DNA of 64,000 bases from Paenibacillus sabinae T27 (lineage in GTDB: Bacteria; Bacillota; Bacilli; Paenibacillales; Paenibacillaceae). The DNA lies in contig NZ_CP004078.1 of NCBI RefSeq assembly GCF_000612505.1, positions 1,228,001-1,292,000 of the forward strand, written 5' to 3'. The translations under genes were made by a program, and so were the position numbers. This document shows positions 13,100 to 16,426 of the stretch, piece after piece. Within the stretch, counting starts at the first letter, position 1. The number at the start of each line of letters is the position of its first letter. The notes below the pieces were generated by a model. That model did no database searches and was not told the origin of the DNA. It was given only the letters and a program-made list of their open reading frames with translations.

Positions 13100-14161
13100 A
13101 TGGAGCAGAAAACGTATAGTCTTGTCATCGTCGGGTTCGGGGGAATGGGCAGCTATCATGTGCAGTTAATTGAGCCGTGCGAGCATCTTTCGGTAACCGG
13201 CGTTTATGATTTGGTCGATTACCGGATGGAGCTGGCTGCGGCCAAGGGCTTTAAGGCTTATGACAGTCTGGAAGCGGTCTTATCTGATGAAACCGTTAAT
13301 GTCGTGCTGATTGCGACCCCTAACGATGTTCATAAGTCTATCGCCATTCAGGCGCTGAAATCAGGAAAGCATGTAATCTGTGAAAAACCGGTGACTATAA
13401 CCAGCGCCGATCTGCTTGATATACTCGCTGTGGCCGAGGAAGAGAATCGTATCTTCATGGTGCACCAGAACCGCCGTTGGGATGAAGATTTTCTCATTAT
13501 TCAAGATATCATTCAGAAGAAAAAAATCGGCGAGACGTTCCATCTCGAATCCCGCGTTCAGGGGGCCAACGGCATTCCCGGCGACTGGCGCCAGCTCCAG
13601 GCTTACGGCGGCGGCATGCTGCTGGATTGGGGCGTCCATCTGCTGGACCAGCTCCTGCTGCTCACCGGCAGCAAAATCGACAGCGTGAGCGCGGAATTAA
13701 GCACCATTCTCGGCACCGAGGTGGATGACGGATTCACAAGCAATATCCGCTTCAAAGACGGCCTGACCGCTGTGATCGAGGTTGGAACGACCAACTTCAT
13801 CAAGCTGCCGCGCTGGTATGTCAAGGGCACGGAAGGAACCGCCATTATCCGCGACTGGGATCTCAGCGGGGAGATTGTGGTCAATAATCCGGACGTTGTC
13901 AAGGTCGAGCCGAAGCCGATTCAGGCCGGTCAAGGGCTCACGAAGACAATGGCGCCGCCTTCGGAGGAATCGACTTTGCGCCTGCCGATCGGGAAGCCCG
14001 AGAGCACGAAGCAGAGCTTCTACGATAACTTTGTCTCGGTGATCGAAGGCAAGAGCGAGCCGCTGGTCAAGAACGACGAGGTCCACCGAGTGCTGCGGTT
14101 GATCGAGACGATTTTTGAAGCGGCGGAGAAGCAGGTCATTCTTAAAGGGCTGGAGCTGTAA
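13100..14161 (+). CDS. Gfo/Idh/MocA family oxidoreductase
   Basis: A 353-residue NAD(P)-dependent dehydrogenase, probably acting on a sugar or cyclitol. The Rossmann motif is VGFGGMGSYH (residues 11-20) and the conserved EKP is E95-P97. The C-terminal alpha/beta domain includes GGMLLDWGVHLLDQLLLLTG, with the catalytic-type D/H pair (DWGVHLLD). ATG 13100 is chosen since GGAAAGGAAAGG precedes it and the dinucleotide fold begins at once; an in-frame ATG at 13034 and an earlier TTG would only add an unrelated Lys/Ser-rich leader. No pathway partner is adjacent. Confidence 0.88.
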   Translation: MEQKTYSLVIVGFGGMGSYHVQLIEPCEHLSVTGVYDLVDYRMELAAAKGFKAYDSLEAVLSDETVNVVLIATPNDVHKSIAIQALKSGKHVICEKPVTITSADLLDILAVAEEENRIFMVHQNRRWDEDFLIIQDIIQKKKIGETFHLESRVQGANGIPGDWRQLQAYGGGMLLDWGVHLLDQLLLLTGSKIDSVSAELSTILGTEVDDGFTSNIRFKDGLTAVIEVGTTNFIKLPRWYVKGTEGTAIIRDWDLSGEIVVNNPDVVKVEPKPIQAGQGLTKTMAPPSEESTLRLPIGKPESTKQSFYDNFVSVIEGKSEPLVKNDEVHRVLRLIETIFEAAEKQVILKGLEL

Positions 14162-14186
14162 GTTAGAGTGTCTAAGCTCGTCGCCC

Positions 14187-14216
14187 TTGCCAGCCGGGAG
14201 CGAGCCGGTTTATAAT
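14187..14216 (+). promoter_or_regulatory. Sigma-A-type promoter of the ABC-F leader
   Basis: TTGCCA (14187-14192) and a perfect TATAAT (14211-14216) are separated by 18 nt. Transcription should begin near 14222, about 370 nt before the ABC-F start codon. Confidence 0.75.
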
Positions 14217-14261
14217 AGGAATCATTCAAATTCGGACAATTGACGGAGGATCTCCCCTGAG

Positions 14262-14273
14262 ATGAAGAACTAA
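14262..14273 (+). CDS. Possible three-codon leader peptide (MKN)
   Basis: ATG AAG AAC TAA lies inside the ABC-F leader, 12 nt downstream of a perfect GGAGG (14245-14249). The spacing is longer than ideal, and the intervening bases form one strand of the outer helix of domain 1, so ribosome occupancy would disrupt that helix. Short upstream reading frames of this kind act as drug sensors in other ABC-F and erm leaders; here it is inferred only. Confidence 0.35.
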   Translation: MKN

Positions 14274-14541
14274 TACGTTTCCCAAGCAGACCAGCCAACT
14301 TGTGAATAGCTCTATGCACAAGCCGCGGTGCGCCCAATAAGGGCGGATGGTCAGGGATACGTATGTCTTCGGGGAGATTTAAGGATCGCTAATCGTTTCG
14401 TTCATAGAGGCCAAGGAACCGGTGGGGCTTATCTGAGGGGTAATGCCCCTGTTCCCGGCTGCTTACGTTAGCAGCATGGAGGCTTGCCGTCCCTGCAACG
14501 AAACGAGCTATCCGTCTCATCCTTTCATACGATATTTCTGA

Positions 14542-14566
14542 CCGCAGCGGCAGCTGCGGTTTTTTA
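14542..14566 (+). terminator. Attenuator terminator in the ABC-F leader
   Basis: CCGCAGC (14542-14548) pairs with GCTGCGG (14553-14559), followed by T6. It lies 25 nt before the ABC-F start and after the leader promoter, so it should cut most transcripts unless read through. Confidence 0.85.
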
Positions 14567-14590
14567 TTTGGAATTCGGAGGGATGATTTG

Positions 14591-16426
14591 ATGCCGGTAC
14601 TCAGTGTGAAAGAGGTAAGCAAAGAATGGAACGGAAACGTCCTGTTTCAGAATCTATCGTTTGAACTGGCGGAAGGAGAGCGCATGGCGCTCTTCGGACG
14701 CAACGGCGCGGGCAAGACCACGTTGCTGAAGGGACTGATGGGCGGGGTACCGTTCGATTCGGGCACGGTGTACCGCGGCCTGCCCGTTCAGGAATGGGGG
14801 CTGCTGGATCAGCAGCTGGAGCCCCGGGAAGGAATGACCGCCCGACGGGTCGTTCTGGAAGGGAACGCCGAAGCGGCGCGCCTGAGAGCCCGGCTGGAGC
14901 TGCTGGTGGGCAGGCTCCATAGCGGCGGAGGAACGGAAGAGGCCGAGCTGGCCGAATACGGCGAAGCCTATGAGGATTATTTGCGGGTGGACGGCTATGG
15001 CTGGGAAGCAAAGGCGGAAAAAGCGCTGCGGCAGCTGAGTCTGCCGCAGGAGGTCTGGGACCTGCCCTACCGGTCTTTGAGCGGCGGGCAGAAGACGCGG
15101 GTGCAGCTCGCCTCGCTGCTGGCCCGCCAGCCGCGGCTGCTGCTTCTGGATGAGCCGACGAACCATCTTGACGCGGAAACGATGGAATGGCTGGAAGAGT
15201 GGGTATCCGGCTATTCGGGAACCGTGCTGTACGTCTCGCATGACCGCCGCTTTATCGACCGCACGGCAACATCCTTGCTGGAGCTGAGGCAAGGTGGCGG
15301 CAGGCGTTATGCGGGAGGGTATACGCAGTACCGCGAGCAGAAGGCCGTGGAGGCCAGAGAACAGGAAGCCCGGTACAAGAAACAGGAGCTGGAAAAGAAA
15401 AAGCTCGAGGAAGCCATCCGGCGGTATGCGCAGTGGTTTCAGCAGGCGCACAACTCCGCCGGGCAGAACGATTTCCTGCGGGCGAAGTCGAAGAAGAACG
15501 TGTCCCGGCTGCATGCGAAGGAAGCGGCGCTGGAGCGGCTGAACCGGGACCGCACGGCGGAGCCGCGGGACAGCGCCAAGCTGAACCTGCGGCTCACGGG
15601 CGGGGAGTTCGCCGCCGGCACGCTGCTCAGGGCGGAGCACGCGGAATTCGCATATCCCGGCGGGAGTCCGCTGCTGAAGGACTTCAGCTTCACGGTCCGC
15701 CGGGGCGACAGGATCGGCGTGATCGGGCCGAACGGGGCCGGCAAATCAACTCTGTTGAAGCTGCTGGCGGGTATCTATGCGCCGACCGGCGGGACGGTCG
15801 GTCTGCATCCGCAGACAAGGATCGGTTATTTTGCCCAGGAGCTGGAGCAGCTTGACCCCTCCTCTACCCTTCTGGACAGTCTGCTTCAGCTTCCTGAAAT
15901 GACGGTGACGGAGGCAAGGACGATTCTCGGCTGCTTCCTGTTCTCACGGGAAGACGCCTTCAAACATATAGGCAGCTTAAGTCTGGGGGAGAAATGCCGC
16001 GTGGCCTTCCTGCGGCTCTACTTCGGGCGGGCAAATCTCCTGGTGCTGGACGAACCGACCAACTACCTCGATATTGAGACGAGAGAGGTCATTGAGGAGG
16101 TTTTGCAGGCATACCCCGGTGCGCTGCTGCTCGTCACGCATGACCGGTATTTGCTCTCAAATGTCGCCAATCGGCTGGTGGCACTCGAACGCGGGCACTT
16201 TCCGAAACAGTTTCCCGGAACCTATGAAGAGTACCTGTCCAAAGACCGGGAGCGTTTGGTGACGGAACGGGAACGGGCCGAGGAGGATGAGCTTGGCGTG
16301 CTGCAGCTTAGGCTTGCTCAACTCATACAGGCCGAAGTACCCGAGAGCGACGAGGAGAATACGGCGCTGCTTCTGGAGATTAAGCGGCTGCGCCAGCGGA
16401 TCGGGGAGCTGAGGAAAGAGGGATAG
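14591..16426 (+). CDS. ABC-F family ATPase (ribosome protection type)
   Basis: A 611-residue soluble tandem ABC protein. First half: Walker A GRNGAGKTT (36-44), signature SGGQ (164-167), Walker B with DEPTNHLD (187-194). Second half: GPNGAGKST (379-387), signature SLGEK (464-468), DEPTNYLD (487-494). The linker between them (about 230-330) is long, charged and helical, as needed to reach the ribosome E/P site, and there is no membrane segment. ABC-F proteins of this kind free ribosomes from macrolide, lincosamide, streptogramin or pleuromutilin drugs, or act in translation quality control. ATG 14591 follows CGGAGGG. The attenuator leader argues for an inducible resistance role. Confidence 0.9.
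   Translation: MPVLSVKEVSKEWNGNVLFQNLSFELAEGERMALFGRNGAGKTTLLKGLMGGVPFDSGTVYRGLPVQEWGLLDQQLEPREGMTARRVVLEGNAEAARLRARLELLVGRLHSGGGTEEAELAEYGEAYEDYLRVDGYGWEAKAEKALRQLSLPQEVWDLPYRSLSGGQKTRVQLASLLARQPRLLLLDEPTNHLDAETMEWLEEWVSGYSGTVLYVSHDRRFIDRTATSLLELRQGGGRRYAGGYTQYREQKAVEAREQEARYKKQELEKKKLEEAIRRYAQWFQQAHNSAGQNDFLRAKSKKNVSRLHAKEAALERLNRDRTAEPRDSAKLNLRLTGGEFAAGTLLRAEHAEFAYPGGSPLLKDFSFTVRRGDRIGVIGPNGAGKSTLLKLLAGIYAPTGGTVGLHPQTRIGYFAQELEQLDPSSTLLDSLLQLPEMTVTEARTILGCFLFSREDAFKHIGSLSLGEKCRVAFLRLYFGRANLLVLDEPTNYLDIETREVIEEVLQAYPGALLLVTHDRYLLSNVANRLVALERGHFPKQFPGTYEEYLSKDRERLVTERERAEEDELGVLQLRLAQLIQAEVPESDEENTALLLEIKRLRQRIGELRKEG

Follow-up and report, generated by a model that had tools for sequence, protein, structure and literature searches.

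The RNA that leads into an ABC-F gene of Paenibacillus sabinae T27 is very probably a ribosome-mediated transcription attenuator of the vmlR kind: A mini-ORF encoding MKN lies in a conserved RNA domain, where it would report stalled ribosomes and turn on the ABC-F gene. The leader reads as a sensor of stalled ribosomes because the mini-ORF and its Shine-Dalgarno (SD) sequence are found in all 71 leaders collected, and because the predicted folds comprise an anti-antiterminator and an antiterminator. The RNA family has no description in the open-licence literature searched, and its mechanism is most likely of a known kind.

Architecture of the leader and its ABC-F gene

The window, i.e. the whole stretch of 64 kb that was analysed, belongs to a genome of 5.27 Mb. 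In this window, about 368 nt separate the predicted transcription start from the ABC-F gene. The features of the locus are:

14187..14216, forward strand: leader promoter TTGCCA-18-TATAAT (consensus scan, 11 of 12 matches; start site predicted)
14245..14249, forward strand: SD sequence of the upstream ORF, GGAGG (located 10-13 nt 5' of an AUG in 71 of 71 leaders)
14248..14380, forward strand: domain 1, the predicted anti-antiterminator, with a closing helix that encloses the ORF start codon and two main inner hairpins (minimum free energy (MFE) fold, covariation)
14262..14273, forward strand: putative three-codon upstream ORF ATG-AAG-AAC-TAA, MKN (AUG and in-frame stop in 71 of 71 leaders)
14349..14365, forward strand: strand common to domain 1 and the antiterminator, GGTCAGGGATACGTATG (alternative pairing, z -6.0; ribosome-masked fold)
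14388..14508, forward strand: domain 2, a variable hairpin domain and predicted antiterminator apex (MFE folds with and without ribosome mask)
14526..14543, forward strand: antiterminator 3' strand CATACGATATTTCTGACC, overlapping the terminator 5' arm (complementarity test; masked fold)
14540..14565, forward strand: intrinsic terminator with a 9-bp stem (hairpin 14540-14561) followed by a T run (consensus scan)
14577..14582, forward strand: SD sequence of the ABC-F gene, GGAGGG (sequence)
14591..16426, forward strand: ABC-F ribosome-protection-like protein of 611 aa (NCBIfam NF000355, 480.2 bits, cut-off 380)

The leader structure is real. The 348-nt leader has an MFE of -130.9 kcal/mol compared to -107.25 +/- 5.81 kcal/mol for shuffled sequences (z -4.07), and none of 100 shuffles was as stable. 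In the MFE fold, domain 1 is closed by a helix between ATCTCCCC (14250-14257) and GGGGAGAT (14371-14378) and domain 2 by a helix between TCGTTTCGTT (14393-14402) and AACGAAACGA (14497-14506). Each domain contains at least two inner hairpins. The preliminary description of this DNA had proposed a strong promoter, a terminator and two domains with perfect closing helices of 8-10 bp and at least two inner hairpins each, and all of these were found where it had placed them. It had also considered the fold larger than a simple antiterminator. This size can now be explained by an anti-antiterminator (domain 1) and a hairpin at the antiterminator apex (domain 2). What it had missed are the SD sequence and the three-codon ORF (14245-14273), which sits within the closing helix of domain 1, and the alternative pairing between 14349-14365 and 14526-14543.

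That the leader matches no named class, as supposed earlier, holds for the window copy: Rfam searches at gathering scores detected no family in the entire 64-kb window. At E<=10, the interval 14150-14650 yielded only two matches, both on the opposite strand and far below the gathering score.

Among the 25 families listed, the protein encoded downstream scores well under the cut-offs of the specific resistance families, with Sal (367.5 of 725 bits) and Vga (339.9 of 725 bits) as examples, and far under that of the CplR model (274.7 of 780 bits). By sequence, the solved structure nearest to this protein is 7p48, titled only ABC-F type ribosomal protection protein and belonging to a Sal protein. 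Eight NF000355 proteins of the genome exceed the cut-off; in four cases, this required the addition of same-frame pieces. Among the named genomes seen, those of Paenibacillus sp. URB8-2 (91%) and P. rhizophilus (90%) are nearest by the ABC-F protein. TaeA, which confers tiamulin resistance in Paenibacillus sp. LC231 (PMC5155152), was considered as the same protein and set aside by its description, since a review places TaeA among the Uup proteins (PMC6723617).

Distribution and conservation of the leader

When the leader was used as a BLAST query, 39 of 100 genomes in the genus gave a match, and an ABC-F gene lies behind all 30 leader loci returned from this search. For the family, a covariance model of domain 1 was built from 30 sequences (model R1, threshold E<=0.01). 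It detected one copy each in 71 of 394 genomes and in 6 of 19 genera; 40 of these genomes belong to the genus. Among the other 41 leaders, 40 precede an ABC-F gene, and the exception (L068) is located at a contig end. The preliminary assignment to the leader of an ABC-F gene can thus be extended to a conserved element, 70 of 71 copies of which precede the same ABC-F gene. Conversely, all 37 genomes of the genus with a 62-100% identical ABC-F protein at E<=1e-150 carry the leader. The remaining three leader genomes (G022, G044 and G052) miss the 1e-150 threshold; behind their leaders, the gene could be aligned in part. As a side observation, three otherwise full-length relatives of the ABC-F gene (in G054, G067 and G021) contain a single in-frame stop, and behind L069, L075, L082 and L106 the best alignment spans only part of the protein. 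Decay, interruption or an assembly error may account for these cases.

An order-wide search matched 52 of 392 genomes at E<=0.05, two of them in another family; this sample overlaps the family sample. In a class-wide search with model R2, 20 of 398 genomes were matched. Eleven matches were accepted. Ten of them belong to the family; the eleventh, L148, comes from a different one, and there too the leader precedes an ABC-F gene and has an MK ORF. The nine weak matches (E 0.016-0.415) were rejected; tblastn found no ABC-F gene at these nine loci. An exact 19-base pattern of domain 1 occurred in 35 stretches of named genomes, 32 of which were also matched by the model. ABC-F similarity was found at 31 of these 32 loci, the exception being L131. 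The three other stretches, all outside Paenibacillus, had neither a model match nor ABC-F similarity and were rejected as chance hits.

A sister group within the same genus comprises 33 genomes with a 47-55% identical ABC-F protein and no R1 match at E 0.01. In 32 of them, the leaders were examined. With the filters switched off, R2 recognised five of these 32 leaders at E<=0.01 and 20 at E<=1, and the group was therefore taken as a diverged relative. Two of its leaders, L165 (twice) and L169 (once), display by eye an additional repeated sequence of about 60-70 bases between the terminator and the ABC-F start, which has the look of a small palindromic or mobile element acquired downstream of the attenuator.

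A mini-ORF can be read from the sequence of each of the 71 leaders: GGAGG is followed at a distance of 10-13 nt by an AUG, and the frame closes with a stop codon after one or two further sense codons. The leaders are mutually related, so that these and the following counts are not independent events. The spacing between SD and AUG is long (12 nt in the window). The peptides are MNN (25 leaders), MK (17), MKN (13), ME (7), MN (4), MYN (2), MKK (2) and MNK (1); hence, 28 of 71 leaders have an ORF of only two codons. UAA serves as stop codon in 70 leaders and UAG in one. Between lineages, the ORF length shifts by a whole codon, from two to three, and the stop remains in frame. All 32 sister-group leaders contain a short ORF at the matching place: 19 encode MK, one ME, and 12 are longer (eleven of eight codons, one of five).

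These longer ORFs (L158, L161, L162, L164-L169, L173, L176 and L185) are located upstream of ABC-F genes with 47-55% identity, and seven of the 12 read MD[TK]HDCSL, unlike the two- and three-codon forms elsewhere. In two other families of the class, five-codon ORFs are apparent by eye, MRFDR in L216 and MKNDR in L219, both ending in D-R-stop. The ABC-F proteins encoded behind them are 49% and 48% identical, respectively.

Covariation was observed in domain 1. In a MAFFT alignment of 30 leaders of the genus, 97.3% of cells were paired (94.0% after shuffling), and 34 two-sided changes compare with 8.5 in shuffled alignments. Counts of base pairs in the same alignment speak against this: 43 of 500 shuffles had at least as many pairs with a two-sided change as the real alignment (four), and 376 of 500 had at least as many further pair types. 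The 71-leader alignment, which leans towards the model because it was fitted to it, exhibits two-sided changes in 19 of 31 pairs compared to 11.2 in shuffled alignments (0 of 500 shuffles), 180 cells with a two-sided change versus 40.0, and 93.3% paired cells versus 84.6%. When the partners were slid by 1-3 columns, only 23-60% of cells were paired. Consequently, the compensatory changes that the preliminary description had named as support for its helices exist in domain 1, and a helix containing the upstream ORF, as expected for an anti-antiterminator, is present by covariation and fold. Domain 2, in contrast, lacks conservation at the sequence level. The core motifs TTCGTT and AACGAA of its closing helix occur together in five of the eight nearest leaders, and the domain is variable in sequence and length. 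Its interval spans 47-221 nt and folds with a mean z of -2.65 (z < -1.65 in 53 of 71 leaders). By analogy, domain 2 may act as a spacer hairpin that joins both antiterminator strands, at the place where vmlR has the pause hairpin SL-2.

The two antiterminator strands are complementary. In the window, the duplex of 14349-14365 with 14526-14543 has -23.6 kcal/mol (z -6.0; 0 of 200 shuffles), and the last bases of CATACGATATTTCTGACC form the terminator 5' arm. Across the 71 leaders, the mean z is -2.07, with z < -1.65 in 36. In 31 leaders, at most 10 of 200 shuffles matched the duplex. It was superior to every slid control window in 59 leaders and failed in 12. The antiterminator is thus weak in several leaders. 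In each of the 71 leaders, a pattern search located a terminator-like sequence (63 leaders by one rule, the other eight by its completed form). In a loose pattern test, the 31 leaders outside the genus all retain the GGTC-type strand and all retain GACC or AACC in the terminator, and only three have a GACC or AACC partner before the domain 1 hairpins. Therefore, outside the genus, the conservation of the strand fits pairing with the terminator better than this pairing within domain 1. By the same test, the domain 1 partner was found in all 40 leaders of the genus, the GGTC-type strand in 39, and the terminator-arm GACC or AACC in 22. The NusG pause motif TTNTTT, a detail of vmlR that does not define its mechanism, is missing between 14222 and the terminator T run in the window; a loose test found it before the terminator in 49 of 71 leaders.

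Predicted switch and alternative explanations

All switch folding consisted of equilibrium predictions. A ribosome on the mini-ORF was simulated by keeping 14245-14277 single-stranded in the window fold. Under this mask, the antiterminator of the window leader is predicted to gain 17 pairs and the terminator stem to shrink from nine to five pairs, while domain 2 stays at the apex. Among the 71 full-length leaders, scored by expected pairs, domain 1 prevails over the antiterminator in 70 without the mask, and the antiterminator wins in 65 with it. In transcripts ending within the terminator 5' arm, domain 1 wins in 55 of 71 unmasked leaders and the antiterminator in 70 of 71 masked ones; the other 16 unmasked leaders favour the antiterminator without a ribosome. 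By these predictions, the antiterminator is incompatible with the anti-antiterminator as well as with the terminator.

Controls were performed as well. In the truncated transcripts, the antiterminator won in only three of 71 leaders when a mask as long as the ribosome mask covered the stretch between the domains. With the mask moved to 30 nt past the AUG, the strand was likewise released in 34 of 71. When the antiterminator 3' strand was shuffled and the ribosome mask retained, residual pairing was still favoured in 133 of 213 cases, with a median of 6.4 compared to 13.8 pairs. This control shows that masking domain 1 is in itself enough to make the strand available for a certain amount of pairing.

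Taken together, the following course of events can be envisaged. When no drug is present, ribosomes would translate the mini-ORF and leave at once. Domain 1 (14248-14380) would fold and lock away the strand 14349-14365, so that the terminator 14540-14565 could form and transcription would stop near 14566. A peptidyl-transferase drug, for example a lincosamide, a pleuromutilin or streptogramin A, would hold the ribosome at the start codon and thus cover the 5' side of domain 1. The strand 14349-14365, once released, could form a helix with 14526-14543 that encloses domain 2. The terminator would then be deprived of its lower stem, and transcription would continue into the ABC-F gene. We infer these three drug groups as candidate inducers since a very short ORF fits drugs that halt initiating ribosomes, and because of the protein family. 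Drug-dependent stalling, termination at this site and the choice of active drugs are proposed by analogy with vmlR.

Other explanations were weighed against this attenuator. It is quite unlikely that domain 1 is the aptamer of a riboswitch, binding a drug or metabolite itself and using the terminator as its expression platform, and that the AUG and stop are incidental. Such an aptamer would suit the compact, multi-helical fold predicted for domain 1 and its strong conservation, which includes unpaired positions (78% mean column identity in 30 leaders of the genus) and exceeds what a plain anti-antiterminator needs. However, SD, AUG and in-frame stop are retained in 71 of 71 leaders despite the change between two and three codons, all 32 sister leaders, in which the RNA has diverged, still possess a short ORF, and the inner loops and hairpins of domain 1 vary in length in the alignment. 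The earlier suggestion of a new drug- or metabolite-sensing RNA therefore survives in one half: The leader is probably responsive to drugs, whereas direct binding of a drug or metabolite agrees less well with the conserved mini-ORF and the predicted switch folds. It is unlikely, too, that domain 1 is more than a lock and that its conserved multi-helix core directly senses the drug or the stalled ribosome. Sensing would then be shared between two elements: A minimal ORF, reduced in many relatives to AUG and one codon, would detect blocked initiation, and the RNA fold would determine to which drugs the leader responds.

Control mainly at the level of translation, with a stalled ribosome freeing the SD sequence of the ABC-F gene and the terminator playing a minor part, is considered very unlikely. 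In the window sequence, the predicted probability that this SD is unpaired rises from 0.02 in the free fold to 0.48 under the ribosome mask, hinting at an added translational control as in vmlR; cplR and vmlR are described as combining both modes (PMC10201436, PMC9226507). Against a mainly translational mechanism, however, stand the terminator-like sequence of all 71 leaders and the overlap of the antiterminator region with the terminator 5' arm, and the calculation for the SD covers a single sequence. Hardly credible is the assignment to a T-box, a cis-acting protein site or another named leader class. The ACCGC in the terminator arm resembles part of a T-box sequence and would speak for a T-box. 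This candidate was rejected, as no Rfam match on the right strand of the window copy was obtained, neither at gathering scores nor at E<=10.

Comparison with known attenuators of ABC-F genes

In the vmlR leader of Bacillus subtilis, an upstream ORF encoding Met-Ile-Asn is located in the anti-antiterminator SL-1, SL-2 lies at the antiterminator apex, and SL-3 is the terminator. Antibiotic stalling on the upstream ORF blocks the anti-antiterminator (PMC9226507). The window leader shares this architecture, i.e. a three-codon upstream ORF with its own SD at an anti-antiterminator, an antiterminator with an apex hairpin, an intrinsic terminator and an ABC-F gene behind them, and by prediction it works like vmlR. 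The peptides MKN and MNN found here are similar to the vmlR-type variants MDN, MDK and MRK, which come from other Bacilli. Induction with MDN or MDK equals that with MIN, and MRK gives less (PMC9226507). The two leaders differ in length, 219 nt for vmlR (PMC9226507) compared to about 368 nt in the window. Furthermore, domain 1 of the window leader is multi-helical and conserved as an RNA family, and many relatives have only two-codon ORFs.

Short upstream ORFs ahead of resistance ABC-F genes have also been reported for cplR of Clostridioides difficile (MR[I/M]), VmlR2 (MK[L/Q]) and LsaA (MAGN) (PMC10201436). The cplR leader is similar in that it has a terminator and is induced through stalled ribosomes; it differs in its upstream ORF and in a length of 212 nt with two predicted stem-loops (PMC10201436). 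The two-codon ORFs found here are shorter than the three- and four-codon ORFs which these sources give for vmlR, cplR, VmlR2 and LsaA (PMC9226507, PMC10201436). The two-codon leaders thus provide natural variants for testing the minimum of translation that a drug-sensing attenuator needs. The leader peptide of msrD is longer than the mini-ORF. The msrD leader of streptococci resembles the Paenibacillus leader in that an ABC-F gene is regulated by drug-bound, in this case macrolide-bound, ribosomes, and differs in being macrolide-specific (PMC10314930).

In summary, the leaders define an RNA family, the window copy of which has no Rfam match, ahead of a ribosome-protection-like gene in six of the 19 sampled genera of the family. 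If the proposed mechanism is true, an inducible intrinsic resistance can be predicted in a common soil genus. Two points are unusual about this attenuator: the two-codon ORFs in the relatives of the window leader and the conserved multi-helix lock.
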